DNA of 51,064 bases. Origin: Clostridia bacterium (lineage in GTDB: Bacteria; Bacillota; Clostridia; Oscillospirales; Acutalibacteraceae). The notes beneath the pieces were generated by a model, which ran no database searches, was not told where the DNA came from, and saw nothing but the letters and a program-made list of their open reading frames with translations. Shown here piece after piece: positions 580-32,589 of this stretch (position 1 is the stretch's first letter; every line of letters starts with the position of its first letter). The stretch spans positions 1-51,064 of the forward strand of contig JAFYUI010000017.1 of assembly GCA_017549565.1 (NCBI GenBank). The letters run 5' to 3'. A program made the position numbers and the translations under genes.

Positions 580-1697
580 TAGTAAGCCACCTCGTTTCCG
601 TCGACAATAGAAGCGTTTATTATATTTGCAATTTCTTGTTTGTCAGCGTCAGTTAAAATATATCCTTGATTTCCAGCGTGTTTTATGACATCCGCTATCG
701 TTGCGGGTTTTTGGTTATAATAGATATTAGCATTATATAAGGGCTCGTTATCTTCAGATATACCAATTAACTCCCATTGCTCTTCACTACCGCCATAATA
801 AACATCCGTAATACTTGTGTAAGCAAATGCACTGTGTTCAATGCTTGTCACGCTATCGGGTATATAAACGCTTGTGAAACTTACATCATCGATGAATGCA
901 TATTCACCAATGCTTCTAACGCTATCGGGTATAACTAAGCTTGTGAGGTCATTATGGTCGAAGCCATCAATCGAAACCACAGGATAACCATCAATAAACT
1001 TTGGTATTATACGGTTGCCCGATATATTGTAATTGCAACGGGTTATATGCACTTCCCTGTCAATAATTTCATAGGTAAGAAAATGCAATATATTATCACC
1101 GCCAGCATCCTTGCCATCTTCCCCCTTTTCACCCTGTGGGCCTGGCTCGCCCTTTTCGCCTTGCGGACCTGTATCACCCTTTTCACCTTTAAGTGCGCCA
1201 TTATCGTATGCTTGCTTTACCTTAAGCGCGGCGTCGGATGCTTCAAGAGCTTTGCGCTCAAGCTCTGAATACGAAATACGGTTTTTGCCGTCACTTGCTA
1301 CACCTTCGGGTTTGTTTTTCAACTTAAGTTCTGCCGGGAATGTGTACATTTCCCACTCAGCACCTTCAGTGTTCATACCGGTTATCGAAAGCACTACATG
1401 CACTATACCGCCATACCGTGTATCTCGTTCTTCGAGAGTATAACATACCTTCGAAGCATCCTCTCGGTAGAGTTCGGCAGGTGCAGTACGAAATACCTCA
1501 CCGGCACCGTTATAAACTTCAAAACGGTAATATCCGTTACCGCCATTTTCTTGTAACGCTTCAACCTCTTCAAAGATTTCGGCGGGTAAGTCAAAATAAA
1601 CACGCATTCGTTTATGCTCACCTTGAACACCGCCAAACTGCCGCCCTGCAGGTGATATTCCGTTTTTTGAAACCGAATATCTAATTTCCCTAATCAT
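579..1697 (-). CDS. Phage tail fibre: BppU-like N-terminus, collagen repeat, BspA-type LRR
   Basis: This 372-aa protein starts at MIREIRYS, behind a strong AAGGAGG 7 nt upstream; an upstream in-frame extension has no such site. Residues 1-135 resemble the baseplate/BppU-type N-terminal domain that anchors fibres to the tail. Residues about 175-200 are Gly-X-Y collagen-like repeats (GEKGDTGPQGEKGEPGPQGE), expected to form a trimeric stalk. Residues about 215-335 carry leucine-rich repeats of the BspA/LRR_5 kind (LVIPDSVRSIGEYAF, VYIPDSVTSIEHSAF). It is probably the receptor-binding fibre. LRR_5 units are more usual in bacterial surface proteins, so the tip may have been captured from a host. 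Function is inferred from architecture and position. Confidence 0.82.
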   Translation of the reverse strand: MIREIRYSVSKNGISPAGRQFGGVQGEHKRMRVYFDLPAEIFEEVEALQENGGNGYYRFEVYNGAGEVFRTAPAELYREDASKVCYTLEERDTRYGGIVHVVLSITGMNTEGAEWEMYTFPAELKLKNKPEGVASDGKNRISYSELERKALEASDAALKVKQAYDNGALKGEKGDTGPQGEKGEPGPQGEKGEDGKDAGGDNILHFLTYEIIDREVHITRCNYNISGNRIIPKFIDGYPVVSIDGFDHNDLTSLVIPDSVRSIGEYAFIDDVSFTSVYIPDSVTSIEHSAFAYTSITDVYYGGSEEQWELIGISEDNEPLYNANIYYNQKPATIADVIKHAGNQGYILTDADKQEIANIINASIVDGNEVAY

Positions 1698-1721
1698 TTT
1701 ATTGCCTCCTTTTTTAAATTT

Positions 1722-1749
1722 AAAAGCGCCCACTTTCGTGAACGCTTTT
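1722..1749 (-). terminator. Hairpin terminator/attenuator after the polyvalent protein gene
   Basis: On the minus strand the RNA folds AAAGCGTTCAC / GTGGGCGCTTT around an AAA-containing loop, just after the stop of the giant gene and before the tail fibre. It is followed by only a short U-rich stretch, so it may be a partial terminator that lowers fibre expression. It resembles the hairpin at 17293-17316. Confidence 0.55.
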
Positions 1750-1754
1750 ATAAA

Positions 1755-4700
1755 TTATTGTTTTAAAAGATATTGTTTAGCTTTATTATCAATTTCAATA
1801 TCTTTTGCCGCATTGCGTTTTTCGGCTTTGGAAACCCCGCCGCTACCGTCAGTATCGGCGTATTTAACACTCGTTGCAGTTTTGAATAGCAGATATTCCT
1901 TAATATCGATGCCAATAGATTTCATATAAGCAATTTTGGCAATTTCTTCACCGTCATCTATTAGACCTTCACTCATACCTTCATCAAGCATTTGTTGGCG
2001 CAGTTTTTTATACAAGGTTTTATTTTTACGCTTAGCTTCGTAAAGCTCATCAAAACGGTCGGTGTCACGTGTCATAACCTTGACCGTCTTTTCTTGTGCA
2101 ATAATTGTTAATATATCGCTTTGAATATCTTCCTTGGTTTCATCATCAAAGCTTTGATATGTCTTGTTTTCCGTAAGGTCTTTAAGATATCCCTTTGCTT
2201 CCTTAGTAACATCGCCATCCTTACGGTAAAGCTTCTTTATATTCGCCTTAATATCCGCATCGCTTACACCTCTATCAAGCAAGTGTTGATATATTCGCTG
2301 ATACTCGGCATTGTCGCCCTTCTCTGCCGCTTTAATAAGTGCCGAATATTTGTCATTACCCTCAACACCCGTGGCGGCGAATATCGTGCCTTGCAGGTCG
2401 CCCTTCGGCTTACTGATGAAAGCAATATCAATAACGTTCCAAGCAGCTCGAAGGTCGCGTAAAACATTTTTAACCGGCACACCGGTAAATGCGGATAAGC
2501 TTCCCGCTAAACTTTCAAACTTTTCAAGAATTGTTTTATTCTCGTTGTTCAATACCTTTAAGGACTGCGCAAAGTCACTTATTAAGCTCATATCTGCACG
2601 CTCAACTGTATAACCTTCAAATATTGAAACAATATCCTTTACCAGCGGTATTAAATTGAGTGGATTAATATCCGAAGCGAAATTACTTCCAAAAGCCGTC
2701 AAATATTTTTCGAGATATGTTTCATCCTCGTCATCATCCCTCGCGGCTGTAATCAAAGATTTTAAAGCAGCATTTAAAAGCACATTGCCAACAAACGCCG
2801 CTACCGCTCGGCCTGCAAACTTTCTTCCCGATTTGGTTTTACTACCTGCTGCACTTGCCGCTGACATCAAAAGATTAAGTGAAACCGTCGGCTCAGACAT
2901 AAACGAAGAAATCATATTTGCAATTTCCGATTTATCACGCATCAAATGCGAACGAGAAAGCGTAGAATCATAAACCTGCGTATGATTTATAACCGATGTA
3001 AAACGTGCGCTGCAAGCTTCGTAAAATTCCTTTGTACCGGGAGTGTAATTTCCTTTGTCGGATATTTCTGCCTTGACTGCCGCCCATATATGCCCCCATG
3101 TTATTTGGTCAGCCATAGCAGCGCCAAACGATAGTACATCATCACGATAACTTGAATCTTTAATATCGAAAAATGCTTTTGTCTTATCCTTCATACCCAC
3201 AGGCATTTCACGTAACAACCATTTAGTTGTCGAAACACCTGTGCTGGTATCAAAGCGTCCCATTTCCTTAATGCCTGCTACCGCCGCGTATTTAACCATT
3301 TCCTCATAATTCTTTGAAACGTTATATTTCTTCGTTTTTAAAAAATGCTTGGGGTCAACATACGCCATGGCGCGCATAATAGCTGATGGTTGTTGAATTG
3401 TCACCGAAGCGGATGCAAGCACTGCACCCTTTTTAAATTTGCTTATTAAATTACTGAGTATTGTGTTATCACCGGATTTACGAACATTACCGTTCATATC
3501 CTTTATAAACTGCTCAATATATTTAACTGATTCAGAGCCGAACGCTCTTTCAAGCTCTGCTTTAACGCTTTTACCCGAAATATCGCTTTCAATAACATTT
3601 CCTTCAGCATCAACCGATGGCATTTTGAAATTTAGTATTTTTTCCATTGTGTCAATGGGAATAGCCAAAGCATTATACATACACATACGGTCAATATGAC
3701 TTGCACACACTTCGCTAAAATCGGATAATATTAACGGTGTTTTAGCGCCTTCGCTTACATTATGAGTAAATGACGAATGTTTTAATTTGGTATCACTGGT
3801 AATTGCTGAATTGCTGGCAAGATAATTAGAAGCCGAATTATAAGGCACATAATATCCTTCGTTGTATTTTTCAAAACCTGACATTTGCATAGAAGTTTCA
3901 TTGCCAAGTGCCGCCATATCAACCGAAAGATATTCCACCATAGCATCGGCATATTGTATTTGTTCTTTGGTTAACCAGTCAAACACCTTCATTATGTCAG
4001 TTTTAGAAATTCGGTGTGCTGCAGAATCAATTTCCGATGTCATTGCAGAAACAACTGCAGAAAGCTTTTTGCCATCCTTAATTGCCTTTTTATATTTTTT
4101 CGCAAACTCTGAAACAGTTAAAGCTGTCGGAGGAAGAACCACACCGCCTTCAAACAAATGCTTCGTATTTTTAAGCTCGTTGCCATATTCGCGCCTTGCA
4201 GTTGCATATAACAATAATGCCTGTTCGCGTGTTAATTTAATGCTGTGGCCGTCCTCGGTGGTTAATTCAAGTGTGTCATTATCCCACTTGGAATAATTGT
4301 ATTTTTCTTTGATACCTTGAATATACACGTGAGCCGACTCCACATTTCGATACCATTTATCCTGGCCCTTAACAAAATCACCGAATACTTTGCGTAATAC
4401 ACCTCCAATATTATCAAAGAAATATACAGGAGTCATATTCTTATATTTAATTTCTTTATCAAATATAGCAGTACCGGGTAGTTCTTTTTTTGTTGATTTG
4501 CTTGTCAAATCCTCAAGCTCTTCAACGCCTATTTCGGTTGCGTCGAATTTTTTGCCGTTAATAAATATTTTGTTTTCGTCGTTTATAAGCCACTCAAAGT
4601 GTTCAACAATATTTCGAACTTGTGCCGTTTCAAGAATGCTTAAATCCCTTAATTTTTTACCCTCAAGCTTTTCCTCAAGAGTTTTTAACATTTCAATTAT

Positions 4701-7700
4701 ATCGGGGTCGTATTTTGTGGCCAAAATATCGGGATTATCTTTGACAGTATCATAGGCGTTCTTATAAAACACACGCAAAGTGCGAAGGTCTTTTGTCCTA
4801 AATGGTGAGGTATCATTAAAGTTAAATACCGCTACCGTTCTAAAAGCGAGTTCTTTAAGCTCCTGTGGCACGTGCTTGGCATCAGAGTTTGAACGAAGTT
4901 TTGTATCCATTCTGCTGACGCTTCGACGAATACACTCAATATTACGGGTTTTATCTGCGCGTTCCTCACGCTGCGCAGTAATTTTTTTTGAAATTTCACT
5001 ACGGCGCTCGGCAAGACTTTTGTTTTGCTCAATAATGCGCTTTTGGTATTGGCCGATTTTCCTTTCATAGCTTTTGGTTAAATTTTCCAGCATTCTGTCA
5101 TTAATTTCTGTGGTTTCGGCAAGAGCTCGGCGCAGGTCGGTGCTTGCCTTGTGTTCACTCTCTGCCAAATCATTCATACCGCTTATAAATTCATCCAAAG
5201 TAATTTTGCCGTTCTTAAAATCTTCTGATAATTTATTCATTTTTTCAACAAAGTACGGTGACGCATCGGAAAATTTTTTATTGACTTTTTCTTTTGGCTT
5301 GGGTATACTATTATCAGACACAGAGTCGATGTACGGTTCAGCCATAGTCTTTTGACTATGCCCCGTAATTGTAGACTCTGTGTCTTCTATTTTTAATAAT
5401 TCAAATGTTTTGCCTTCGGGTGTTAAAACCCTTAATGAATGAACCTGACCTTTTCCATACATAACGCAAACCGCCACATTACCAATTTGCTTATTAAGAA
5501 CTACAGGTGCCGCAAAGGTCACTGATACATTACCTTTTCCTTTGTGATTTTTATGACCTGTTATTGCTTTTCCTCTTTTAAGTACGTAAGGAGCTGAGAT
5601 AATAGCGGCAGCTTCTGCATCATTGTTAATATAATTACGGACGCTTTCAATAGTACCGGCATCAAAGATTATAGACCCATATTCTTTTCTTTGAATTACA
5701 TAACCAAAATGATTTTTTAACAACTCATCAAGCACTTTATAATATGGCTTACCACTTTGCTTATTATAAACTACTGTCGCAACTGGCTGCATTTTGTTAA
5801 TTTCATCGAGATGTTCACGTAGCTGTTCTTTTAAACTGCTATCATTATTCTTATCCCAAGAAATATCCCACGAACGCACTTGTTCTCTTGTTAAAGAATA
5901 TTTAACCCCTCCATTATCTACACGTGTGTTTTCGCCCGAACGGGTGACGCGTGCAATACGGTCATTTATATACTTCAAATCTTCGGTAAGTGTGCGGTTT
6001 TGTGCAGCACCCGAAAGCTTATCAATAATGCTTTGCAACCAGTCTTTGATTTTTTGTAAAATGTCGTGTTGCTTGGCCGCCATTTCTTCAAGCGCAGTTG
6101 TTACCTTTTCGGCATTGCTGCCAAACAAGGTTTCTTCCGCTACAAAATCGGCAACAATTTCACGCTCTATGCTTTCCCGAGTGTAAGCATCGCGTATCTT
6201 TTTAGGTATCCATTGTGAATTTTTGCGATTTTCCCAGTATATATTAACCCAAGTATCTATAGCTTCTTGACGGCTGCCCTCGAAGGGTGCGCCGTTTTCT
6301 TTTTCCAAAGCATCACGAACATACTTTTCAAAGCTATTACTTTGCTGCATTAAATATTTTTTAAAGCTCTCATACCTCTTAAGGCCTTCAAGATAATGGG
6401 TAAATTCGTGCTTAAACACCTCAATATACATTTCCGTAACCGCAAGGTTTGGATTTAAGTAAATGGTTTTAGTATCGGGGTCATAAGCGCCCTTAACATA
6501 TCTATCACTCCACTGAACAGTAATTCCGAATTTTTTGGCAATATCCTTAAGGTGACGCATCCTGTTATCTTCGCGTTGCCCGGTGATAATTGCCCTGGCG
6601 GTTTCCTCGTCGGTAGATTTGCGATATATCGACTTGCTTTCAGGTTCGCGAAGGCCAAACCTTTCACTTTCGTTTTCAGAAGTGCCGCTATCGTTATTAG
6701 AATCAGCAACATCGTTATTGGAATTATTGGAAGCGTTATCAGAATTATCCGAATCGTTTTCAGGCATAAAAGAAGCAGGCCCGTTATCAAGGTCTGCTTC
6801 ACTTACACCATTATTCTCTTTTAAAATACCGTTATCAGCCACGATTATAATTTGCTCTGGGTCAAAAACTCCTACCGACCAAGTTCCTTGCGCTTCCTTA
6901 AGGTTTTGATATAAATAAGAATCATATCCTAACTTCTTCAAAAATTCACGCACATAAACATTTGCAGGCGCTTCGTATTTGTCTGAGAAAAATCCATCCA
7001 TTTCCGAAACACGGTTACATTCGTCTTGGCTCATAATACCATAATCAACTAATTGCTTACATATGTTATATGCACCAAATCGACCATCATCGCGAACAAT
7101 TAGGGGATTTTTGGCTAATACATAAGTTTCTAAAATATGACCGCTTCGTTGCTGTGCATCGCGCCTTTTAACAGTAAGGGCTGCAGATAATGTACCAAGA
7201 TGAAACACACCGTCGCCATACTTGAATTCATCAAATAAATTCGGTGACCAATGGAACAAAGACATTATTGTGCCATCTTCAGTTTTAAAAATGGTATCCG
7301 AAAGCTTATCTTGTAAGTTCTCGCTTAATAATCTGCCAACACTATCAATAGCTTTAAGTTTTATTCTTCGTATACTTCCAAGAAAACCTTCATCAAGTCC
7401 AGACCCCAATCTCTGTGTGGGTCCGACTTCTCCTGAAGAAATCCACCCTGACTCGCCTGCTGCCACATTTTTGTCAGGTATTCCCGTTGACGACTGTTCA
7501 GTTCCCAATTCTCCGCGAATAATTTCGGTATTAACACTGTATTTCCGTTGATTGTTTTGGCTTCCACTAACGGCTGATACTCTTCTTCCTGCCAATAACT
7601 CGGGGTCTGTACTGCCATTTATATCATCTCCTGTAACGGTTTGTTGTCCGTTATTTATTATATCACCGTTTGCATTTGACTGCAATGCTGAATTTTGCAC

Positions 7701-9837: not shown

Positions 9838-10719
9838 CTAATACAAACCATTTGTATTTGTTAGTTCTATATAAGAATTAGATTTCCTGTCCCACCTATA
9901 AAACTTTCCATTTGCTTTATGAATTCTATAGTTAAGGCCATCCACGGTATATGTGGCGATTTGCCCGTTAGCAAGTTTTGCCGACTGCAATTTAACGCCA
10001 TTGATATTATTAGGTTGATAGCCATTTTCAAATGCTCCACCATTATAAATATCCTTGTTTATGCTTCCCGTATATGGACTTACACCTTTGGGCAATTCCA
10101 AGGTTTTACCCGATTTGTTATCAACATAACGAATATACTCTTCGCCATCTTTAGTTATTGCATAACAGTCCACGCCGTTGCTCTTAAGCGTGCCCTCGTA
10201 ATCGCTTCTTAACAACCCATTGGTTGTTCTAATCATGTAAGATGCCTTTTCCTGCGCTGCATTATTAGCACTCACCTGCTCAGCTGCCGCCTTTGCTTTT
10301 GCTGCTCTTTCTTCTGCCTCCAACGCATCGTATGTATTATCAATTTCCATTTCGGTTGCAAGGCGGTTTTGCTCAATTTCCGAAAGACTATTATCACGCT
10401 GCAGATTAATTTTTGAAATATCCGCTTGTTTTTGGCGGTTTAATGCATAACCGGCATTTGCCGCAGAAAGTTGTACAGCAGTTTGTTGGGTTCGGTTAAG
10501 ACCTGAATCCGTAAGACCTAAATTAGCCATACTTTCGGCCACTTTGCGCTCATTTATAAGCTTCTGCACCGCTATCGTGCGTTGTTGGTCATCATAGGCA
10601 GTGCCAACATCCTTAATGCTTGCATCGGCATTGGCGTTAACTACCGCCGCCCGTTTATCGCTAAGCTCGTTATTTTTCTTTTTGTTTTCTTCTCTTTGCG
10701 CAGACAAACTCGTCGCCAT
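9838..10719 (-). CDS. Coiled-coil internal virion/tail protein
   Basis: This 293-aa protein begins at an ATG overlapping the previous stop (TAATG), showing translational coupling with the 741-aa tail gene. Residues 1-165 are Ala/Gln/Lys/Glu-rich and predicted long helices (for example NQLRRQKQADISKIN-like heptads), while residues about 170-293 are beta-rich with repeated Tyr/Gly turns. In short-tailed phages, genes at this position just before the giant ejection protein often encode internal virion proteins. I do not recognise a named family. Confidence 0.65.
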   Translation of the reverse strand: MATSLSAQREENKKKNNELSDKRAAVVNANADASIKDVGTAYDDQQRTIAVQKLINERKVAESMANLGLTDSGLNRTQQTAVQLSAANAGYALNRQKQADISKINLQRDNSLSEIEQNRLATEMEIDNTYDALEAEERAAKAKAAAEQVSANNAAQEKASYMIRTTNGLLRSDYEGTLKSNGVDCYAITKDGEEYIRYVDNKSGKTLELPKGVSPYTGSINKDIYNGGAFENGYQPNNINGVKLQSAKLANGQIATYTVDGLNYRIHKANGKFYRWDRKSNSYIELTNTNGLY

Positions 10720-12944
10720 TATCTTGCACCTCCTGTGGTCCTGTATTTAATCTCCATACCGTCAACAGCAATAACACCTTGGCTTGAAAGCTCAAGCCCA
10801 ATGCGAAGCACATTGCGAGCGCACGGGAAAATCGCCTTGCTGTCGATATAACCGGGTGTGTATGCCTGTGTTTCGGTACCGTTTAAATAAATATCGTGCT
10901 CTTCTTGGCTTTGGTCGGTGATTACCTTAACGGTTATCGGCTCACCACCATTGTTACCAAGCTGTAGGTTGATTTTATCAATATTCTTTCGTGTGCTTGC
11001 CTCGCCAAAGGTAAATAACTTGGTGCGAAGGGTTGTTAGGATGGGGCGTTCTTTAACCTCAAACAAATCCTCATAACCATTTTCATTAAGACAACTGAAA
11101 ACTTTATCAACCGACAAGTTATTTTCTGCAAGTGCATGGTTTAAAATACAACAGTTTGCAAATCCTTCGCCTTCATAATACGAGCTAAATAAAATTTTGC
11201 CATCCAATTCGCAAATATATGCTTTATCAAGTTCTAAAGGCAATTCCCAAATGTACCACGGTATTCGAATGTTCGCATCCTCGGTCTTTGAATAGCTCGC
11301 AACATGGGTGTAGCCATAGCAGTTATAATCCATAAGATAGAGTTTGTTGCCGCTCATAATACAATAATAACCGTTCCAGTCGCAAGCAGTGGGCGCACAG
11401 TCGATATTTTGCTTCAAATCACGTGCAACCATTTCCGAAACGCAAAAAACACTTCGCTCGTTATATTGGCTTTCATTTACAAGTGTGTAAACATTACCAT
11501 TGTCACCAAGCCAAACAAGACGATTTCGGCAAAGCTGTATTGTTTCGGGGTGTGAACACCCAACATTTGGGTTAATTTGCACCAATGGAAAATACACACT
11601 TGAAGCAACATAATCAACTACACTTTGATTTATAAGGTTTTCAGCCGTTATGTCAGTATTTTGCTGATATTTGGTATAAAAAATGCCGCTACCGTTTTCT
11701 TTGAAAATAATCAGCATATCCGCCTGTTTGCCAAAGCTGGTAACCGCCGTCGAACTTTCACCCACACGAAAATAATTGTTTTCAGAAAAATAAAGTGGAT
11801 TATTAAGGTCAGACCATACAACAAGGTTTTCATTGCCTTTGCTTGTATTTCCGCCTAAGAACAAACGGGTACCACCTTCAATACCGGCCGTACCGCCGCC
11901 GAACCACTCACACTGAGTCATTTTGAAAATTTTATCCTTTTCTTCATCAGTTGCTAAATATGGTGCTTTTATAACAAGATTATCTATTAGACCTTCATTT
12001 TCCTTTGTAATATAAGCAATAGTGTCGTCTTCACTTCTAAAAAACAACTGATTATAAAAAACTGACAACTTAAGTCCGTCTGCACCTGCCTTAGCTTCTG
12101 TCACCCATTCAGATGTTTCCCCTTCGAGCACTATTTCATGAGTAACCGTTTGCATACCCGTAGCAGTTTTAGTGGTCAGTTCAGCTGTCACAGTCATTCC
12201 CTTGTATTCTTTACCGTTACACGAATGTAACAAAGAATACCTCATCTTGTGACCCTTTTCCCAACCATCGCCGACAACAGGGTTGTAAGCGGTATATGAT
12301 ATTTTATAATAATCACTTAACAAATTATATCCCTCAAACTGCACGCCCGATGACATTACTTCGTCCTTTTCCATTGAAAAACTACCGTCCGCTTTACAAT
12401 TTGTCACAACCAACGGCACATAATAATCTTCTTCAGGCACAAATTCAAAGCGATTTTCCGCCTTATCTTCCGAATATTCGAGCTTATAAACTTGGTAATT
12501 TGAGGTAAACAAATATATAGCATTATCATTTTGTGTGAGGAAATAGGTTATTTGCTCATCAAATTCCAAAAATGAAATTGCGGGAAGCTGTGAAATTTCT
12601 TCTTCGTTTTTTTGCCAATAAAAAGACAAGTCAGTTTTAAATATACCGTCATTATCATAATCGGTATCCTTTTGCACAACCATCAAGACATAATCTTGGT
12701 ACTTTATGTTGGACCATAATTTATAAAAAACTTTTCGGTAACCAACGCGGCCGATAAGCTTGTTATTTAATGCCATAATACCCGGTCTTGTTTTTAAAAC
12801 GCCATCTTGAAACCACACATTTTTTGCTTGTGTGAGCTGGTTATCAAGCACCTCGCTTACACCGTCTCGAAGGTTTAAGCCACCCGCTAAATCGGGTACC
12901 TTAAGCACCTTTGCGCCCTGCGGCCTTAATTTTGGAAATTTCAT
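10719..12944 (-). CDS. P22 gp10-like tail stabilisation/hub protein
   Basis: This is a 741-aa protein starting at MKFPKLRPQG, chosen because a perfect GGAGG lies 9 nt upstream. The N-terminal segment DLAGGLNLRDGVSEVLDNQL followed by AKNVWFQDGVLKTRPGI is typical of podovirus head-completion/tail-hub proteins of the P22 gp10 type. The remainder is beta-rich with recurring hydrophobic strands, compatible with a propeller. It would close the portal channel and hold the tail after DNA packaging. It lies directly downstream of the 118-aa adaptor, as expected. No tape-measure gene is present in this cluster, which supports a short-tailed virion. Confidence 0.72.
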   Translation of the reverse strand: MKFPKLRPQGAKVLKVPDLAGGLNLRDGVSEVLDNQLTQAKNVWFQDGVLKTRPGIMALNNKLIGRVGYRKVFYKLWSNIKYQDYVLMVVQKDTDYDNDGIFKTDLSFYWQKNEEEISQLPAISFLEFDEQITYFLTQNDNAIYLFTSNYQVYKLEYSEDKAENRFEFVPEEDYYVPLVVTNCKADGSFSMEKDEVMSSGVQFEGYNLLSDYYKISYTAYNPVVGDGWEKGHKMRYSLLHSCNGKEYKGMTVTAELTTKTATGMQTVTHEIVLEGETSEWVTEAKAGADGLKLSVFYNQLFFRSEDDTIAYITKENEGLIDNLVIKAPYLATDEEKDKIFKMTQCEWFGGGTAGIEGGTRLFLGGNTSKGNENLVVWSDLNNPLYFSENNYFRVGESSTAVTSFGKQADMLIIFKENGSGIFYTKYQQNTDITAENLINQSVVDYVASSVYFPLVQINPNVGCSHPETIQLCRNRLVWLGDNGNVYTLVNESQYNERSVFCVSEMVARDLKQNIDCAPTACDWNGYYCIMSGNKLYLMDYNCYGYTHVASYSKTEDANIRIPWYIWELPLELDKAYICELDGKILFSSYYEGEGFANCCILNHALAENNLSVDKVFSCLNENGYEDLFEVKERPILTTLRTKLFTFGEASTRKNIDKINLQLGNNGGEPITVKVITDQSQEEHDIYLNGTETQAYTPGYIDSKAIFPCARNVLRIGLELSSQGVIAVDGMEIKYRTTGGAR

Positions 12945-12969: not shown

Positions 12970-13326
12970 CTAATCAACAGTCGGAATAACATCATTAACT
13001 TCACTCATCCTCGAAAGCTTTGTTCGGCGTTGCTGATATTCGGTTGACCACATATATTGCTGTGTATCATCACCTTCAGCATTGGCGATATAGCCCGCTA
13101 CACCGCACATTAAAACATCGTGTGCCTCTTGGGGCAGGTCGATTTCTTCCGAAAGCGATATAATCGGCTTGCGGGGTAGCTCACAAATATGCCTTAAATC
13201 GTTATATACAAGGTTAAATATTCCAGTTGCGCGGTTCATAACACGCTGTGTCAGCTGACTGTTACCATCGTTATCACTGTATCCAAGCACCGCTATCGCT
13301 TGTTTTATAACATCATTTGCAGTCAT
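12970..13326 (-). CDS. Head-tail adaptor (P22 gp4-like)
   Basis: This 118-aa, mostly helical protein lies between the portal and the gp10-like tail protein. It contains LTQRVMNRATGIFNLVYNDLRHICEL and QEAHDVLMCGVAGYIANAEGDD, patterns found in phage head-completion adaptors that bind the portal ring. The assignment rests on size, helical content and position. Confidence 0.62.
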   Translation of the reverse strand: MTANDVIKQAIAVLGYSDNDGNSQLTQRVMNRATGIFNLVYNDLRHICELPRKPIISLSEEIDLPQEAHDVLMCGVAGYIANAEGDDTQQYMWSTEYQQRRTKLSRMSEVNDVIPTVD

Positions 13327-13338: not shown

Positions 13339-15138
13339 TTAATATTCTTGCGGTATTATTTCCTGCCCCGCCACTTCGGGAGGCATATCGGTTGGCACAA
13401 CACCGCTGCCATCATCAACAGTTGGTGTTGTTGGGGTTGGTGTGGGCGGTTGCATTGCCGCCTTTAATTCTTCCCTTGCTTCCTTTAAAAGACCTTCCTT
13501 ATCGGGTATAATGCCCTGTGGCAAGCGTTCAAGATACTGTACCTTGTTAATAAGCCCCTGTGATAAAAGCACATCAAGGGTGGCTATGGTAGATGATACG
13601 TTCCATAACGGATTAGCGCCAACATCCACACGAACGCTTATAAGCAGGTCCTTGTACCTTTCGGCGTTAAATGGCATATAATAAGTGCCGTCCTTATCTT
13701 CAATACGAATTTGGCGGTTGCCGTAAAGATTAAGCCAAAAATCCGCCCATATGCGCGCAATATCCTCAATAAAGCTGTAAAAATTGTTTTGGTACAGCTG
13801 CAAGGGTTGTAACGATGCCTCTCGGCTTTGAATAATTGCGGCGGCATTGTCCGGGCGAAGAGTACCAAGCGCCGCATCGGTTGCGCCGTTGTCGGTTAGC
13901 ATATTGTTGGCGTGGTCATTAAGCCCTGTAATCAGCTGACCGTTAAATGCAGGCGGTGAAATATGCCTTACTGCACCCGCAACATCTTCTGCGCCACCGT
14001 ATACCTCAATTACTTCGCCAGGGTTGTTGGTGATTTTTTGCTGCACTATATCACGGTTTACCACTGTTTTCGGCATACCCGAAAGCAAAAGCGCCCATAT
14101 TGCCGAAGAAACACCGCGGTTAAGCGCAATTTGGTTGGGAATTTGATATGTAATATCCGATGAGCCGTAAATACAGCTGTTTTGGTTGTTCCAACACATT
14201 TTTGCTAACGGATATAAGGTAAGGCCTGTGTCCCATGGCGCACGAACAACAGATTTTTCGGTCACCTTAACCGCCATAACCTTGTAACCGCTACCGTCTT
14301 CGTTATATTCTTTATAAAATTTTGTTAAAACGGTTACGCGTTGGCTGTCGCTTGGCTCGGCTTCACCCATTGCACCGGCATTAACCTTGTATGAATCTGC
14401 ACCGTCGGGCACAATGTTTTCAATATCCTCGGCCGAACGCTTATTTCTTTTGGCTTCTCTGCGAACGTCAGCACAATTTAAGCGCTGTGATATAATTATC
14501 CAGGGTTGTTTTTGCACCTCTTGGCAGTTTGGCTCACCAAAGCAAACATTTTCAACATTTAATATTTCAAAATCAATGTCGCCCTTAATAGGTTGCTTTT
14601 TTGCTTCGTCGGCATAAAGGCCTGTTTTAATATCGCCATCCCAAAACGTGTAAGCAATGCAGGTACCCGAAATATAAGCGTTGCGAAGCGCAGTTTCTTT
14701 TTTGATATCAAATTTAACGCGCTCACCTGTTATTCTGAAATAATCCGACAAAATCGATGTTATTACCGATATTTCGGCATTATCCATTTCGCCAACAAAC
14801 TCTGCGCCCGACTTAATATCCTGTCGGTACTGCTCAACCTTATCCTTAAGCCCTGAATTATCAGGCACACCGTCGGCGCTGTAATTAACCGCTACCGGCG
14901 CGGCAGTAATGCTTGATATTTTATAGTCGGCAATTCGTTTAATGAGGTTACGGCGCACAAGCGGGCGTGTATTACCGCTTTGAACACCGCGCCATTGGTC
15001 GCCAACATAAAAGCGCTCATTTACTTTGCTTTGCTCAAAAATACCCTTTTCGCCAATACTGGCCTTATAATCATTACCTTTTGTATATTCTGAAAAAACC
15101 TCTTTCGGTGAGGTTTGAATTGTCAAATTTATGCTCAT
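13339..15138 (-). CDS. Portal protein
   Basis: This 599-aa protein forms the dodecameric ring through which DNA enters and leaves the capsid. The N-terminal region (RFYVGDQW, LVRRNLIKRIADYKISSI) and the central part (NQIALNRGVSSAIWALLLSG, then RPDNAAAIIQSREASLQPLQ) are typical of phage portals. The C-terminus is Pro/Thr-rich and probably flexible. It starts with a reasonable ribosome site. Its position is unusual: it follows the scaffold and capsid genes rather than sitting between large terminase and scaffold. Confidence 0.88.
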   Translation of the reverse strand: MSINLTIQTSPKEVFSEYTKGNDYKASIGEKGIFEQSKVNERFYVGDQWRGVQSGNTRPLVRRNLIKRIADYKISSITAAPVAVNYSADGVPDNSGLKDKVEQYRQDIKSGAEFVGEMDNAEISVITSILSDYFRITGERVKFDIKKETALRNAYISGTCIAYTFWDGDIKTGLYADEAKKQPIKGDIDFEILNVENVCFGEPNCQEVQKQPWIIISQRLNCADVRREAKRNKRSAEDIENIVPDGADSYKVNAGAMGEAEPSDSQRVTVLTKFYKEYNEDGSGYKVMAVKVTEKSVVRAPWDTGLTLYPLAKMCWNNQNSCIYGSSDITYQIPNQIALNRGVSSAIWALLLSGMPKTVVNRDIVQQKITNNPGEVIEVYGGAEDVAGAVRHISPPAFNGQLITGLNDHANNMLTDNGATDAALGTLRPDNAAAIIQSREASLQPLQLYQNNFYSFIEDIARIWADFWLNLYGNRQIRIEDKDGTYYMPFNAERYKDLLISVRVDVGANPLWNVSSTIATLDVLLSQGLINKVQYLERLPQGIIPDKEGLLKEAREELKAAMQPPTPTPTTPTVDDGSGVVPTDMPPEVAGQEIIPQEY

Positions 15139-15520: not shown

Positions 15521-16414
15521 TTACTGCGAAATTGCAGCAGCAATATTTTCAAGGTTGCTCTTTTTAACAAATGCATCGTAATATACGCGATAATCAAACT
15601 TGTATGCATCTGCACCAAGATTTTGTTCGGGTGTAAATACGCGCATTGTTTCGCTCTTCTTAACAATATGTGAAGCTGTTTTCGGAAGCGCAAGCATACC
15701 GATATTCTTAGCACCTTCTGTGGGCTTAAGACCACCGTTCTCGGTATCATCGGTATATTCAGTCTTCATACGACCGTCAGCTACAGGAATAATTGCAGCA
15801 CCGTTGATAGTTTTGACCTTGAGGTTAATATCACCCTGCTTGAAATCCGAAACGGTAATATGGCGCTGAATTTCAGTTGAAGTCATAAGAGCCGCATAAA
15901 CATCGGGATTTATGAAAACTACTACTTCAGCATCAAAACCGGCCTTTGATTGAACTTTGTTAATGAGTTCAACAAGCTGTGCATACACCTTTGTTACATC
16001 AAGAGTAACGGTGTTTTTCTTGTCGATAGCAATTTTAGCGAGTTTTGAAAGAACATAGCTATCCATTTCGGGAACAACTTTAGTTCTTATATATTCGCCC
16101 ATTACCTGACCTGCAAGATTTGCAATACCGGTTTCATCCATATCTTCACGGTCAATTTGCAAAGAACGAGCACGGTCTTGCGATAATTCAAAAGACTGTT
16201 GCGCAACTGTAATCGCACCTTGTGTGAAACCGGTTTCGCGATTATAGTCTGCAAGACCAACAAAGTCAATGTCAGGGATTATTACGGTTTTGGCGCCAAC
16301 GAATTTAGCGCGCATTACATTATCGGTCATAAAACCGGTAACTGATTTTTGTACCAACATTTTGTCAAGTTCGCCCGAAAATTTTGAGGCGAATTCTAAA
16401 GTATTAATTGCCAT
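15521..16414 (-). CDS. Major capsid protein, HK97 fold
   Basis: This 297-aa protein follows the scaffold gene and has a strong GGAGG 8 nt before its ATG. It shows the pattern of small HK97-fold coat proteins: an N-terminal arm, the segment VIIPDIDFVGLADYN then ITVAQQSFELSQDRARSLQI, a helical P-domain spine (LVELINKVQSKAGFD), and the A-domain stretch VVVFINPDVYAALMTSTEIQ. It lacks the long delta domain of HK97 itself, so a separate scaffold is expected, and one is encoded directly upstream. Confidence 0.88.
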   Translation of the reverse strand: MAINTLEFASKFSGELDKMLVQKSVTGFMTDNVMRAKFVGAKTVIIPDIDFVGLADYNRETGFTQGAITVAQQSFELSQDRARSLQIDREDMDETGIANLAGQVMGEYIRTKVVPEMDSYVLSKLAKIAIDKKNTVTLDVTKVYAQLVELINKVQSKAGFDAEVVVFINPDVYAALMTSTEIQRHITVSDFKQGDINLKVKTINGAAIIPVADGRMKTEYTDDTENGGLKPTEGAKNIGMLALPKTASHIVKKSETMRVFTPEQNLGADAYKFDYRVYYDAFVKKSNLENIAAAISQ

Positions 16415-18966: not shown

Positions 18967-19358
18967 TTTGGCAGCTCATCTTCCCCGGCGAAAAAAACGA
19001 CATTATTACTAATCGAAGCGGAATCCTTTTGAAGCTTGCCCTTAACCTCTAAAAGCATTCTGATGGCTTCCATATTGCCTTCGTCAACCTTCTTGCCTAT
19101 CTGCTTCCACGCTTTCGGAATCATACTTGAAGTGTAGTTATCAACAAGGCACTCTACATAGCCCATAAATTCGCTGTCGTGCTGCCAATTATAGAAGGTT
19201 GTCCGCGAAATATTAAAATCTTTACACAACTGACTTACCGTTCTGTCGTCTTCGGGGTCCACAAGTGCCTCCGCAACCTTTCTTTGCTTTGGTTTTAGGT
19301 TTGGGTACATCCCTTTTAACGTGGTTGGAATATCTTCCGTTTTGTTCACTTTTGTCAA
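18963..19358 (-). CDS. terS: Terminase small subunit
   Basis: This 131-aa protein has a helix-turn-helix at residues about 40-65 (TVSQLCKDFNISRTTFYNWQ) as in small terminases that bind the packaging site, then a helical oligomerisation region. It is coupled to terL through an ATGA overlap. The 215 bp upstream hold a long inverted repeat (19387-19420) that could be part of the packaging or late-promoter signal. Confidence 0.87.
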   Translation of the reverse strand: MTKVNKTEDIPTTLKGMYPNLKPKQRKVAEALVDPEDDRTVSQLCKDFNISRTTFYNWQHDSEFMGYVECLVDNYTSSMIPKAWKQIGKKVDEGNMEAIRMLLEVKGKLQKDSASISNNVVFFAGEDELPK

Positions 19359-20008: not shown

Positions 20009-20319
20009 TACTGCACCTCCCTAATATTGATTTTGCCTAAAAATCTTTGCAACTCGAATTGACCGTAACTGTAATTTGTGCCGTGGTTTTTGTTGTACAG
20101 CTCGCAAAGTCGATTAAATGCATCCAAGTCTTTTGTATCATTCCAAAGTTCAGGCGACTTTTTTCGGGCTTCCGCTACCGGTTTCTTTACATATGGGTTA
20201 TTCTTCTTAAGACTTGCCTTTCGGTTTTCTTCCCAGCAATACGGACAAAGCCGCGTTAATTTTCTTTCGCTATAAAACTTCTTACCGCATTTACACTTGC
20301 GTCTATATAACTCAGCCAT
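20008..20319 (-). CDS. Small zinc-ribbon phage protein
   Basis: This 103-aa protein has an N-terminal CxC...CxxC knuckle (CKCGKKF then RLCPYCWEEN), a basic middle and a C-terminal helix (LGKINIREV). I start it at the ATG in MAELYRR, which sits inside the end of the upstream DnaJ-like gene: the sequence reads KGGGDG-stop in one frame and GGTGG plus ATG in the other. The same junction is reused one gene upstream. Function unknown; nucleic-acid binding is likely. Confidence 0.6.
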   Translation of the reverse strand: MAELYRRKCKCGKKFYSERKLTRLCPYCWEENRKASLKKNNPYVKKPVAEARKKSPELWNDTKDLDAFNRLCELYNKNHGTNYSYGQFELQRFLGKINIREVQ

Positions 20320-20837: not shown

Positions 20838-21149
20838 ATACTTTTTACTACAGTTATAACAGTCATAGCAGTAACCGCTATCGTCGTTGATATGTTCGCA
20901 CCCGTCGCAAATGTTGTGACTGTTGCGTTTTGCTATCAAAAGCAATTCTTTATGCTTATTAAAAAGTCCATCAAAGCCATATATCGTTTCTTTAAGCAAT
21001 TCGTGATTGCTATTAAGATGTTTTTCCATTATGCGTTCCCAGTTTTTCAACAACACTTCATATACTCTTTGCTTTATACGAAAACCAAAACAAAAGCCGG
21101 CTATAAAGCACAATATCATAATCACGATAACTACTACGCTGACTTTCAT
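20814..21149 (-). CDS. Membrane-anchored Cys-rich small phage protein
   Basis: This 111-aa protein has an N-terminal transmembrane segment (residues 4-24, VVVIVIMILCFIAGFCFGF), a helical linker, and a C-terminal cysteine cluster (CDGCEHINDDSGYCYDCYNC) able to bind zinc. It ends in KGGGDG, the same C-terminus and the same overlap with the next gene as its downstream neighbour. Function unknown. Confidence 0.58.
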   Translation of the reverse strand: MKVSVVVIVIMILCFIAGFCFGFRIKQRVYEVLLKNWERIMEKHLNSNHELLKETIYGFDGLFNKHKELLLIAKRNSHNICDGCEHINDDSGYCYDCYNCSKKYVKGGGDG

Positions 21150-25907: not shown

Positions 25908-26273
25908 CTACATAAGGTCCATAAGTGATATCTTGATATCATTTTTATGACCGCTACCGTTAACTGAAGCGCATAAATCAATTCTCATTTGAAATTCTAC
26001 GTCAGCGCCCGGGAAATAAAACTTAACCGCTTGCTTATATACCTCAAGGTCGCTGATAGCACTACCGGCATTTTTGGCAATTTCTTTGCAACAAGTCGCT
26101 ACTGTTTTATCATTTTCGATAATCGCCTGTGCAAATTCATCCTCTTGGCGGCAAAATTCTAAAAGTGCCGCTATCGTTGGCTTTAAAATCACATCTGCAG
26201 CACCCGAAAGCTTTGAAGCATTTACTTCTTTTTCTAACTTTTCTTTTGCCTTGTTAAATAAAATTTCATTCAT
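25908..26273 (-). CDS. PcfK-like protein (AcrIIA9-related family)
   Basis: This 121-aa protein matches PcfK across its middle: helix FCRQEDEFAQAIIENDKT, then TVATCCKEIAKNAG, and the C-terminal VYKQAVKFYF with a beta tail. The PcfK family includes AcrIIA9, a published Cas9 inhibitor, so an anti-CRISPR role is possible but not shown by sequence alone. It lies directly upstream of PcfJ in the same operon. Confidence 0.72.
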   Translation of the reverse strand: MNEILFNKAKEKLEKEVNASKLSGAADVILKPTIAALLEFCRQEDEFAQAIIENDKTVATCCKEIAKNAGSAISDLEVYKQAVKFYFPGADVEFQMRIDLCASVNGSGHKNDIKISLMDLM

Positions 26274-26326: not shown

Positions 26327-26875
26327 CTATTCCGTCAGCCAGTCACCTACCTTCCACTCAGGTAAAACGGCTTGGTCGCTTCGATACATTATGACCGACA
26401 AATACCAATGGCCGTTATATTCGTTATATCGCGCGAAGGTACGCACAAATTTAAAGCCCTTATACCGCCTTTCCCAATAAGCCGCATCATCCGCTCGACG
26501 TTTGGCAAGAAGCTCAACACCACGGCGGCTAAACGATGCATCCTTTGTTTTAATAACCGGCTTTTCAAGATTTCGGCTGTGCTTGATTCTTCGGCGGCCT
26601 TGTGCATCCTTTGTAAAGTATCGCGCCGCCGCTTCAGGCCCAAACCGTTCGGGCTGAAACCTGTCAGCATTAACACGCACGCCCTTTGGCCAACAGTCCT
26701 CATACGCTTCACGTGGAAGGCCACCCGTTAAAAACATGTGAAAGTGCCAATTACTACGCCCTGCGTATCTGCCCGTTTTATATTTAACCTCTTCTATCGA
26801 ATAATAATACTTAAACGGTGCTTCAAGTTTCCTTTTAGTTTTTATAAGTCGCTCATCCGCAACACCACTCGCCAA
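26327..26875 (-). CDS. Rep-like replication protein, C-terminal part (HUH type)
   Basis: This 182-aa reading frame begins without a normal start (TTG, no ribosome site). It contains the HUH-type histidine pair WHFHMFLTGG at about residue 43 and the downstream stretch ARYFTKDAQGRRRIKHSRN found in rolling-circle/phage-type Rep proteins. It is in the same frame as 26888-27202 and is separated from it by one TGA and four codons, so the pair looks like a single gene of about 290 codons with a nonsense codon. It may be a pseudogene, a read-through product or two polypeptides. Confidence 0.65.
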   Translation of the reverse strand: MASGVADERLIKTKRKLEAPFKYYYSIEEVKYKTGRYAGRSNWHFHMFLTGGLPREAYEDCWPKGVRVNADRFQPERFGPEAAARYFTKDAQGRRRIKHSRNLEKPVIKTKDASFSRRGVELLAKRRADDAAYWERRYKGFKFVRTFARYNEYNGHWYLSVIMYRSDQAVLPEWKVGDWLTE

Positions 26876-26887
26876 AAGTTTGTTAAT

Positions 26888-27202
26888 TCATTTAAGCTCA
26901 GCCGCACGGCGCCGTTTTATTCGGCGGAAGTAATTATCCACATCGGCTAAAGCGTCATCATAACTTTGCGGTGCTTTGCTTTGCTCGTATGTAGGGCACA
27001 TAAAAATATCACTGTTATCGAAATTGGCATTGATATCTCTTATCGCCTTTTTTCGCATTTGTGTATCGTTATATTTCTTTTGTGCCGCCCTGGATGCCTT
27101 GCTCTTGGGCTCCCTTGTCGGCATCCGTCGGCCATCTGCCCAAACAGGGAAAAAATCAACCTCTAAAAGCGGGCCGGATATTATTTTCTTTTCTCTTTCC
27201 AT
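26888..27202 (-). CDS. Rep-like replication protein, N-terminal part
   Basis: This 104-aa protein has the start of the same Rep family: SKASRAAQKKYNDTQMRKKA, INANFDNSDIFMCPTYEQ and the basic helix VDNYFRRIKRRRAAELK, then TGA. In full-length relatives this runs straight into the WHFH core encoded at 26327-26875. Its ATG lies 3 bp after the DUF6017 stop with AAGGCGGTAGGG as ribosome site. Confidence 0.62.
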   Translation of the reverse strand: MEREKKIISGPLLEVDFFPVWADGRRMPTREPKSKASRAAQKKYNDTQMRKKAIRDINANFDNSDIFMCPTYEQSKAPQSYDDALADVDNYFRRIKRRRAAELK

Positions 27203-30092: not shown

Positions 30093-30095
30093 TGA

Positions 30096-30124: not shown

Positions 30125-30130
30125 GCATAA

Positions 30131-30147: not shown

Positions 30148-30155
30148 ATTATTTC

Positions 30156-30184: not shown

Positions 30185-30206
30185 AACAATATAAGGAAGT
30201 GATTAT

Positions 30207-30824
30207 ATGAAACAATTCAGTAATATTTTACGCCAGTTGCGTATATCAGATAATTTAACACAAAAACAATTAGCAGACGCTTTAGGTTTGGCATTCAGTA
30301 CAATTAGTATGTATGAACGTGGAGAACGCGAACCTGATTTTGAAACGATGGAAGCCATTGCAGATTATTTTAATGTCACAATGGACTACCTTCACGGCAA
30401 AACCAATAATATTTCCTTTGAAAATATTATTCCGCTACCGAATATGAATAAAATCCCATTGCTGGGTACTATTGCTTGCGGCGAACCTATCCTCGCTGAA
30501 GAGAATATTGAAAGTGAAATAAATATCCCTGAAGACATACGCGCCGATTTTGCTCTTCGTTGTAAAGGTGACAGTATGGTGGATGCACGTATAATGGATG
30601 GCGATATTGTTTATATTCGTCAACAACCTACAGTAAACAATGGCGAAATTGCGGCCGTACTAATCGGTGACGAAGCTACACTCAAGCGTGTTTATCTTTC
30701 TGCCAACACCGTAACACTAATGCCCTGCAACCCGAAATACCAGCCATACGTATATACCAATGAGCAATTAAACGAAATTCGAATCCTCGGCAAAGCCATC
30801 GGATTTACAAGCACTGTTTTTTAG
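30207..30824 (+). CDS. CI-like repressor with S24 (LexA-type) peptidase domain
   Basis: This is a 205-aa protein. Residues 5-60 are an XRE helix-turn-helix (LRQLRISDNLTQKQLADALG, TISMYERGEREP). Residues 80-205 are a LexA/S24 self-cleavage domain with Ser123 in GDSM and Lys160 in TLKRVY, and a likely cleavage site at Cys91-Gly92. It should maintain lysogeny and be inactivated by RecA during DNA damage. It has a consensus promoter and an upstream GGAAG site. Confidence 0.92.
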   Translation: MKQFSNILRQLRISDNLTQKQLADALGLAFSTISMYERGEREPDFETMEAIADYFNVTMDYLHGKTNNISFENIIPLPNMNKIPLLGTIACGEPILAEENIESEINIPEDIRADFALRCKGDSMVDARIMDGDIVYIRQQPTVNNGEIAAVLIGDEATLKRVYLSANTVTLMPCNPKYQPYVYTNEQLNEIRILGKAIGFTSTVF

Positions 30825-30834
30825 GAGTAATATT

Positions 30835-31356
30835 ATGTTTGATATTTTAATTTATCTCCTTACACTTTTAAATCTGTATTCCATTAAAGAGGTTGTATTC
30901 ACTTCTTCAGCTGGGTGGTTTTTCAAAGCTTTTATAATTGCCTTCTCTATAATAACTGCAATTGCTATATATGTTATAAAATCCGGCAATGAAAACCGTA
31001 TCGAATATACTGAAGAAGTACGCCAAGCGCTTAACCTCTACCGCCAAGATATAGAACGAAATGAAGAATTCAAAAAAACATATTCAGGTTTTAATGAATT
31101 TTATAAATTATTTGAAAGCGGTATAGAAGGCAGAGAATTTTTGTTTTGCAAACTTCCAAACGAATATCGTTATCTTTTGTCTAATAAATTAATTGAAGAA
31201 AAAAACACACAAGAATTTAACGAGCGTTTTTCAAGTTTTGACGAATTTTATCGTTGGTACAATACTACTGAGGGAAAAGAATATGACCTCTTAAATTTAC
31301 CACCCGAAATTTTTCACCAATTAATAGACAAGGAAAATAAAAATGCAATAAATTAG
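30835..31356 (+). CDS. Small membrane protein downstream of cI (lysogeny-associated)
   Basis: This 173-aa protein has two N-terminal transmembrane segments (residues about 3-20 and 27-48) and a charged cytoplasmic domain with a repeated motif (FNEFYKLFESGIEGREF and FDEFYRWYNTTEGKEY). It has its own GGAG site and follows cI by 10 bp, so it is expressed in the lysogen. Genes here often encode superinfection exclusion or host-modifying proteins; that role is inferred from position. Confidence 0.62.
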   Translation: MFDILIYLLTLLNLYSIKEVVFTSSAGWFFKAFIIAFSIITAIAIYVIKSGNENRIEYTEEVRQALNLYRQDIERNEEFKKTYSGFNEFYKLFESGIEGREFLFCKLPNEYRYLLSNKLIEEKNTQEFNERFSSFDEFYRWYNTTEGKEYDLLNLPPEIFHQLIDKENKNAIN

Positions 31357-31449
31357 TTTGCACTCAACTGCAAAACCGCAATAAAATAAAAACTCCGCCC
31401 CGGTGCTACCAACACCAAGACGGAACTGCGATAGAAAGGAGGGTGTTTT

Positions 31450-32589
31450 ATGCTTTGCCGCAAATGTAAAAAAGAAATACCGGAAAGTTCTTTATACTGC
31501 AATTTTTGCGGTGCCAAACAAACAACAAAAACCACGGCCGCGAAATCACGAGGCAACGGGCAAGGTTGTGTTTATAAAAATAAACGAGGATTATGGGTTG
31601 CCGAAATCACACGCGGTTATGACACCCAAACCTTGCCGAACGGTAATATAAAGCTTTTGCGACGGAAAGCCACAAAATCGGGATTTTCAACCAAACGTGC
31701 CGCTTTAGAATATTTGCCATATCTTAAACAAACAATTACCACCACTGACTTAAATATTAAATTCAAAGACCTTTATGAAAAATGGCTACAACTTCACGAG
31801 CAAAAGGTCACACACGACACCATAAACTGCTACAAGGCAGCATTTAAATATTTTTCACCGCTTTATTATGTTGAAATTTCAAAAATAAAAACCGAACATT
31901 TACAAAAATGTGTTGATGCCTGTCCTAAAAAGAGACAAACAAAAAAGAATATGAAATCACTGTGTACAGCATTATGGAAATATGCCACGCAGCTTGATAT
32001 TGTTGACCGCAATTACGCAGAATTTATTTATATTGCGCCCGAAGAAAAAACCGAAAAAAACGCTTTTTCAAAAAAAGAATTGCAACTGATGTGGGATAAG
32101 GTCGATATTTTCCCAAATCTTAAATATGTCCTTATTCTTTGCTACACCGGTATGCGCATTGGCGAAATGCTTAACGCCAAAACCAGTAACTATAACCTTG
32201 AAGAAAACTATTTTATTACAGGTTCAAAAACCGAAGCGGGCAAAGACCGAATAATAACCATTTCACCACGTCTTTTACCCTTCTTTGAAAATTTCGGCAA
32301 AAGCGAATACCTTTTCTTTGAGGAAGCGCAAAAGCCTTCCGATAAAAAATTCCGTTACGATATATATTACCCAGCACTTTCCGCTATCGGACTCGATATT
32401 ATTGAAGAGGACGGAAGCCATAGATACAACCCACACTGCTGCCGCCACACTTTTGCGACCATGATGAAAAATGTGGATGCGCCTGCAACCGATAAACAAA
32501 AGCTTATTGGTCATAGCAAATTCGAAATGACGGCATATTATACCCATACAGATATTGAATCTCTGCGTCAAATCACGAACAATTTGTGA
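31450..32589 (+). CDS. int: Tyrosine integrase with N-terminal zinc ribbon
   Basis: This 379-aa protein starts behind AAAGGAGGG. Residues 3-23 are a zinc ribbon (CRKC then CNFCGAKQ), followed by an arm-binding domain and the tyrosine recombinase core. R236 (GMRIGEM), H329 and R332 (HCCRHTF), H355 (LIGHS) and nucleophile Tyr364 (YYTH) are all present, so it looks active. Its stop is 66 bp before a partial tRNA-Pro, the expected attachment core, as in many phages that integrate into tRNA genes. Confidence 0.92.
   Translation: MLCRKCKKEIPESSLYCNFCGAKQTTKTTAAKSRGNGQGCVYKNKRGLWVAEITRGYDTQTLPNGNIKLLRRKATKSGFSTKRAALEYLPYLKQTITTTDLNIKFKDLYEKWLQLHEQKVTHDTINCYKAAFKYFSPLYYVEISKIKTEHLQKCVDACPKKRQTKKNMKSLCTALWKYATQLDIVDRNYAEFIYIAPEEKTEKNAFSKKELQLMWDKVDIFPNLKYVLILCYTGMRIGEMLNAKTSNYNLEENYFITGSKTEAGKDRIITISPRLLPFFENFGKSEYLFFEEAQKPSDKKFRYDIYYPALSAIGLDIIEEDGSHRYNPHCCRHTFATMMKNVDAPATDKQKLIGHSKFEMTAYYTHTDIESLRQITNNL

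Follow-up and report, generated by a model that had tools for sequence, protein, structure and literature searches.

Why would a temperate phage carry one nine-base word 19 times, always on the same strand? This question is raised by a 51,064-nucleotide stretch of DNA from a Clostridia bacterium (contig JAFYUI010000017.1; hereafter the window, meaning the whole stretch that was analysed), which makes up an entire contig (C13) of a host genome of 1.49 Mb in 37 contigs (G000). Bases 1 to ~32,600 of the window are a prophage and the remaining ~18 kb are chromosomal; the prophage extends up to the left edge of the contig and may lack its far end. The word reads CCGCTAYCG on the + strand and CGRTAGCGG on the opposite strand, with AGCGG as its 3′ five bases. 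We propose that CGRTAGCGG is the predicted Chi signal of the AddAB helicase–nuclease of the host's clade, carried densely and in a single orientation by the prophage, a reading built on sequence comparison to which we give a probability of roughly 70%. The phage would probably carry these Chi-like sites so that the host repair nuclease repairs rather than destroys its DNA.

A one-stranded nonamer in the prophage

A computer count finds 19 exact copies of CCGCTAYCG in the window, spanning 692..32389, with 19 on the + strand and 0 on the − strand, which agrees with the 19 copies in one direction that a preliminary description of this DNA had found by eye. That description had expected fewer than one copy by chance, and dinucleotide shuffles of the window give a mean of 0.35 copies and a maximum of 2 (100 shuffles). 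Synonymous codon shuffles within genes yield a mean of 0.95 and a maximum of 5 in 2000 trials, upholding its view that codon bias is no explanation. All 19 copies lie inside coding open reading frames (ORFs). Leftward genes hold 17 of them; the other 2 are in the rightward cI and int and retain the + orientation on the map, as had been stated. The copies in leftward genes fall in two reading frames, phases 1 and 2 (9 and 8 copies), again as described; phase 0 is empty because it would create an in-frame TAG.

The word is sharply defined. Swaps at single positions leave 0–2 + copies each, save at the C/T position, which is split 11:8. One-mismatch forms in bases 1–32700 number 10 on the + strand and 1 on the − strand, so the earlier statement that one-base variants share the direction holds for all except the last (CCGATATCG), which overlaps a + hit at 23250 because the core is palindromic. 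Three near-copies reported at 852, 921 and 3277 do exist, but they start at 850, 919 and 3275. The motif density of the prophage is 0.58/kb, with 0.48/kb between the gene for the terminase small subunit (terS) and the replication genes, versus 0.62/kb left of the gene for the large subunit (terL).

The terminase nearest to that of the window is 88% identical and lies in a prophage of a sister species (G067:C25). In the 19.8 kb round this terminase (L115) the word is present in 11 copies, divided 11:0 between the strands, and one more lies ~4 kb to the left; equal numbers on both strands of related phages, which the preliminary description had named as the result that would tell against its claim, were thus not seen. 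The alignable DNA of the window and the sister prophage is 77.9% identical, and 6 of the 9 window sites it covers are retained as motif, two of them differing solely at the degenerate base. By the same rule, GC-matched 9-mers are retained at 21.7% (P 0.005 for the motif). In more distant relatives the word is nearly absent, as expected of a host-specific signal: 73 of 80 viral-contig loci with a more distant terminase lack CGRTAGCGG, and 7 hold one or two copies. Neither the portal nor the PcfJ protein, searched against the viral contigs, brought up a relative.

Together, these counts leave hardly any credit to the idea that the word merely follows from composition, codon bias or repeats in the proteins. 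Many short words do depart from codon shuffles in these genomes, but a by-product fits poorly with copies in two coding phases and in antisense, with a shuffle maximum of 5 in 2000 trials, or with conservation in the sister prophage over background that includes swaps at the degenerate base alone.

The word on the host chromosome

The claim that the motif occurs only in the phage part is correct within the window and fails at genome scale. The host genome holds 106 copies in total (61 + and 45 −), versus 25 for the reversed word, and 87 of them lie outside this prophage in ~1,456 kb, a density of 0.060/kb or a tenth of that in the prophage. The zero count in the 18-kb chromosomal part of the window carries little weight, since the genome-wide density predicts about one copy there. 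Our sample of the host's own chromosome covers 725 kb with 66 sites (0.091/kb); its stretches were picked after the site list was known, and it is site-rich relative to the genome. Of these sites, 64 of the 66 lie in open frames of at least 100 codons. Against 40 codon shuffles of the 637 kb of coding sequence in this sample, we count 28 co-directional sites versus 5.6 and 32 anti-directional sites versus 6.0, a 5.2-fold excess. The degeneracy seen in the phage recurs on the chromosome, where the R position holds 20 A, 17 G, 1 C and 1 T, and among the four-base 5′ extensions of AGCGG (460 kb) CGAT ranks first and CGGT second. The host genome therefore over-represents an asymmetric short word, as it would a Chi sequence.

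This distribution bears on two further options of the preliminary description, namely dispersed repressor operators of the mycobacteriophage stoperator type and a packaging or segregation mark recognised by a protein of the phage, for instance the DUF3102-like one. Mycobacteriophage stoperators are bound by the repressor and are mostly intergenic. An asymmetric, unidirectional word dispersed over a phage would suit either option, but all 19 phage copies are intragenic, their orientation is unchanged in the rightward cI and int genes, and the motif is spread over many contigs of the host clade, with no dense cluster in one such genome (G045) among the 100 of its 109 sites that were listed. We consider both options very improbable.

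On the chromosome, the orientation of the sites is independent of genes: of the 66 sampled sites, 31 are co-directional with their gene, 33 are anti-directional and 2 are without a long ORF. Along contigs, however, it tends to persist: of the pairs of adjacent sites, 47 of 59 agree in G000, 47 of 62 in G067 and 58 of 68 in G045 (152 of 189 in total), the pairs being based on listed sites (81 of the 87 chromosomal sites in G000, 100 of 109 in G045, and those of G067 minus 12 at the end of the prophage contig). For composition-matched 9-mers the figure is 1376 of 2560 (53.7%), as against 40 of 48 for the motif in identical stretches.

The leading strand was assigned per contig by the replication component of third-position GC skew, and one stretch with an ambiguous skew sign (L149) was excluded from the leading-strand, word-ranking and matched-word analyses. 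Plain local GC skew, with which 38 of 66 sites agree, was replaced as a strand marker because it tracks genes. By third-position skew, 55 of the 66 sites are on the leading strand before the contig that carries dnaA (C8) is split, and 45 of the 60 in-ORF sites are after it is split at dnaA, where the skew turns. When words are ranked with gene direction controlled, CGGTAGCGG is first of 22,301 9-mers, GGTAGCGG first of 27,129 8-mers and GTAGCGG tenth of 13,342 7-mers; in the separate sampling batches, CGGTAGCGG is third of 18,733 in one and 120th of 21,345 in the other. The leading-strand polarisation looked for in a Chi sequence is thus present, the CGA form being weak and the sites beside dnaA exceptional.

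Polarity that is independent of gene direction is equally a property of the FtsK-orienting polar sequences (KOPS) and SpoIIIE recognition sequences (SRS), which direct FtsK/SpoIIIE and are densest towards the terminus. The word could accordingly be a sequence of this kind, with the phage adapted to its replichore, an explanation that we judge quite unlikely. With 6 sites in 48.7 kb, the dnaA-bearing contig is not poor in the word, and a 6- to 10-fold excess in the phage is unexpected for KOPS. Moreover, a separate purine-rich family of polar words (GGGGAAG, AAGGGGA, GAAAGGG) is more KOPS/SRS-like and is not phage-enriched. CGRTAGCGG is enriched 6.4× in the phage over the sampled chromosome, whereas 10 of the 11 other words compared, all strand-polar or KOPS/SRS-like, stand at 0–1.2×; the eleventh, GAGAAGGG, occurs once on each strand of the phage. 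A search for dif with a B. subtilis-like pattern located it in 0 of 4 genomes.

Two observations from the own-chromosome sample concern other words. With gene direction controlled, the purine-rich family, including AAGGGAA, is strongly leading-strand polar; we take it to resemble KOPS/SRS and to be a candidate for that role. Words of the AAGCTCG/CGAGCTT type are far over Markov expectation on both strands, as with CGAGCTTGA (33 versus 2.9).

Host AddAB and the predicted Chi signal

The host encodes AddA (773 bits, over the cut-off) and AddB, and the latter aligns over its full length with B. subtilis AddB structures. In B. subtilis AddB, F68 and F210 are Chi-binding residues and mutating them impairs the response to Chi, according to PMC4824097. 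We compared these two residues of the published Chi locus: their equivalents are F64 and F200 in the host AddB and are invariant in 50 of 50 aligned AddB sequences of the genus. The host thus possesses a putative cognate helicase–nuclease with a Chi-binding locus, and the comparison of recognition residues suggested in the preliminary description found both phenylalanines conserved.

The 3′ five bases of CGRTAGCGG are identical to the Chi-like 5′-AGCGG-3′ of B. subtilis (PMC8022716), and the host AddA and AddB are, like B. subtilis AddAB, of the Gram-positive type with F68/F210 equivalents. S. aureus Chi, 5′-GAAGCGG-3′, has the same 3′ end. The enriched word here differs from both in its 5′ part: it is nine bases long and requires CGRT, bare AGCGG is unexceptional, and GAAGCGG is near expectation in the window phage (5 versus 4.15). 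Of the options in the preliminary description, the Chi-like site read by AddAB is the one favoured by the presence of AddA and AddB, the AGCGG end, the chromosomal excess and polarity, and the one-stranded sister prophage. Statistics alone do not identify the reader of a motif, and the word could instead be a chromosome-wide polar motif of another host protein (a nucleoid, segregation or replication factor) that is mimicked by phages. This we hold to be unlikely, given that AddAB is in the host, that the 3′ half matches both the Chi-like sequence of B. subtilis and the last bases of S. aureus Chi (PMC8022716), and that over-representation of Chi in phages has precedent (PMC3784561).

Among 70 genomes of the genus, six stand out jointly by count and by ratio, with 93–111 copies and 3.9 to 10.9× the reversed control (counts that include prophage copies, 19 in G000 and 12 in G067). 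For the remaining 64 genomes the ratio has a median of 2.1, and five of them have at least 90 copies at ratios of 1.0–1.9. An AddB match was found in 65 of the 70 genomes, and in a tree of 50 AddB sequences the six motif-rich genomes form a supported clade (SH-like approximate likelihood ratio test, SH-aLRT, 100; quick search). Their AddB carries clade-specific residues near F200, namely A202 (G in 40 and S in 4 of the other sequences) and F197 (I, L or V in 37 of those 44), which could be the matching change in AddB if Chi specificity diverges within the genus; A202 is one of 33 clade-specific AddB columns. The closest named relative by AddB (95% identity) is a metagenome-assembled genome labelled 'uncultured Clostridia bacterium' (L252).

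How might such sites serve the phage? AddAB reads Chi when coming from its 3′ (GG) side, and the phage sites therefore face an enzyme moving rightward. In lambda and P22, packaging starts near terS and runs with the late genes; by analogy we infer that the terminase of the window phage would cut the concatemer near terS and package leftward with the late genes. The free end left near terS would then be the entry point for AddAB moving rightward, which would first meet the site at 20172, ~0.8 kb from terS, and then the one at 20875, ~1.5 kb away. There it would stop degradation and load RecA, sparing the phage DNA and promoting concatemers via host recombination.

Lambdoid phages without a recombinase over-represent Chi (PMC3784561), and the window phage resembles them in several ways. 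It is likewise temperate and over-represents a Chi-like host word, it exceeds the host's own over-representation of that word as they do (PMC3784561), and no recombinase was recognised among the 34 of its 35 ORFs scanned with PHROGs (terL was identified by Pfam). In contrast to the lambdoid phages, it has an AddAB host and carries the word at ~10× the host density, whereas the lambdoids without a recombinase match the 0.2/kb of E. coli (PMC3784561), and its sites are spread over the whole phage with no concentration between terS and the replication genes.

Several observations weigh against a Chi assignment. The absence of clustering between the replication genes and terS, just noted, is one. 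Another is that 12 of the 34 PHROGs-scanned ORFs are without any match, so a divergent recombinase is possible. On the chromosome, enrichment and polarity are moderate: the excess over codon shuffles falls to ~3.4-fold when scaled genome-wide, the density is under that of E. coli Chi (0.2/kb, PMC3784561), and 160 kb of the sister genome (G067:C25:1-100000 and C21:1-60000) hold no CGRTAGCGG where its genome mean predicts ~9. Nor is an excess confined to the clade: 5 of the 64 other genus genomes reach a ratio of 3.9 over the reversed control, with fewer copies, the ratio of G000 would be ~3.5 without its prophage copies, and five non-clade genomes (G004, G043, G047, G053, G077) hold 28 copies versus 12.5 expected from codon shuffles, a 2.2-fold excess. 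Polarity is carried by the CGG form (26:3); CGATAGCGG is 19:12 in ORFs and unexceptional, 29 of 306 composition-matched 9-mers being as polar. Three sites on one side of dnaA in G000:C8 point the lagging way and, by analogy, two sites in G067:C6 and three in G045:C4 beside dnaA would likewise be lagging. Finally, bare AGCGG is unexceptional among pentamers, at rank 22 of 1024 in 60 viral loci, 89 of 1003 in prophages of the genus and 115 of 1023 in the host's own chromosome, and according to PMC8022716 stimulation of recombination by AGCGG has yet to be demonstrated in B. subtilis.

Prophage features and related words

The sites and the recognised genes of the prophage are collected in Table 1. 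Of two neighbouring leftward ORFs, one matches the C-terminal and the other the N-terminal part of the phrog_3584 family, so the replication initiator gene is split or broken.

Table 1. Predicted Chi-like sites (all CGRTAGCGG, read on the − strand) and annotated genes of the prophage, in window coordinates.
Feature	Position	Strand	Location or note
CGATAGCGG (CCGCTATCG on +)	692..700	-	tail-fibre-like gene
CGGTAGCGG	1840..1848	-	2689-aa ORF
CGGTAGCGG	2798..2806	-	2689-aa ORF
CGGTAGCGG	4829..4837	-	2689-aa ORF
CGATAGCGG	6685..6693	-	2689-aa ORF
CGATAGCGG	10569..10577	-	retained in G067 prophage with the alternative permitted base at the R/Y position
CGGTAGCGG	11686..11694	-	retained in G067 prophage
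CGATAGCGG	13290..13298	-	not retained in G067
CGGTAGCGG	14288..14296	-	portal gene; retained in G067
CGGTAGCGG	14889..14897	-	portal gene; retained in G067 with the alternative permitted R/Y base
CGGTAGCGG	17112..17120	-	
CGATAGCGG	18108..18116	-	terL; retained in G067
CGGTAGCGG	18929..18937	-	terL; retained in G067
CGGTAGCGG	20172..20180	-	nearest site right of terS; not retained in G067
CGATAGCGG	20875..20883	-	not retained in G067
CGGTAGCGG	25951..25959	-	gene with weak PcfK match (under Pfam cut-off)
CGATAGCGG	26168..26176	-	same weak-PcfK-match gene as site 25951
CGGTAGCGG	30432..30440	-	antisense to rightward cI-like gene
CGATAGCGG	32381..32389	-	antisense to rightward int gene
portal protein	13339..15138	-	phrog_156
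major head protein	15521..16414	-	phrog_422
terminase large subunit, terL	17611..18966	-	PF04466 (Pfam)
terminase small subunit, terS	18963..19358	-	phrog_24579
replication initiation protein, two adjacent ORFs	26327..27202	-	phrog_3584
cI/S24-type repressor	30207..30824	+	
tyrosine integrase	31450..32589	+	Pfam

A second head module lies elsewhere in the host genome, between ABC-transporter genes (G000:C25:109539-117752, equivalent to L131:9539-17752). Its terL is 67% identical to that of the window phage and it has a phrog_422 head protein and a phrog_156 portal in the same gene order; there is no integrase among the eight ORFs scanned, and the module is not motif-rich. A terL match, mostly a single one, is present in 64 of the 70 genus genomes. 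The module could be a domesticated capsid or an element resembling a gene transfer agent.

Other words ending in AGCGG are one-stranded in further prophages of the genus and in some viral contigs. GAGCGG, mostly after GR, is divided 23:1 in G056, 15:0 in G050 and 11:0 in a viral contig (L276). GAAGCGG is divided 23:0 in a prophage stretch of G077 (L129), where it is the top 7-mer and mostly without a leading G, and 17:0 in L284, with a leading G in 12. The ratio of GRGAGCGG over its reversed control is at least 2 in 10 of the 64 other genus genomes, including G050 and G056, and stays under 1 throughout the six-genome CGRTAGCGG clade. In a further viral contig (L285, IMGVR_UViG_3300029305_008666), whose replication protein is 58% identical to that of the window phage, a G comes after each of the 7 TAGCGG copies of the major strand (TAGCGGG), and the other strand has 2 TAGCGG copies. 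We regard it as possible, rather than probable, that Chi diverges among the species of one genus as RNAGCGG words, usually after G, with the differences confined to the 5′ half, and that phages track the version of their host. Chi would in that case be a kind of lineage password, which may limit the hosts whose AddAB spares a given phage.

Three candidates of this type did not hold up as Chi assignments. GRGAGCGG, proposed for other members of the genus, is unpolarised in a G013 sample (8 same and 8 different pairs) and has a place only in the tentative divergence reading. GAAGCGG, as the Chi of G077, is strong in the prophage (21 versus 6.1), its genus-wide ratios are ambiguous, and it is not specific to G077, since it is 1.3- to 3.8-fold enriched in 7 of 7 sampled chromosomes and in both gene orientations. 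A general excess of AGCGG in related phages amounts to 844 versus 660 copies in the 60 viral loci, yet goes with the pentamer rank there given above. Within top-ranked 7-mers, AGCGG is tied second among pentamers, at 7 of 64 loci, a count in which the window and its sister figure along with two stretches from a single contig, and this is suggestive only.

Apart from E. coli, only four bacteria, three Gram-positive species among them, are listed by PMC8022716 as having an identified Chi or Chi-like motif, and PMC6344619 gives the C. difficile Chi sequence as not determined at that date. Among openly licensed literature, surveyed by title and the opening of the abstract, we found no Chi assignment for such Clostridia.

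The word CGRTAGCGG is thus a candidate Chi in an uncultured Clostridia clade, reached via its phage. The path taken here suggests a possible route to further Chi sequences, in which dense one-strand words in prophages are followed by a test of their polarity on the chromosome. The assignment would extend the idea of phages bearing the Chi of their host to an AddAB host, and the motif, together with the AddB residues, offers a handle on the evolution of Chi recognition.

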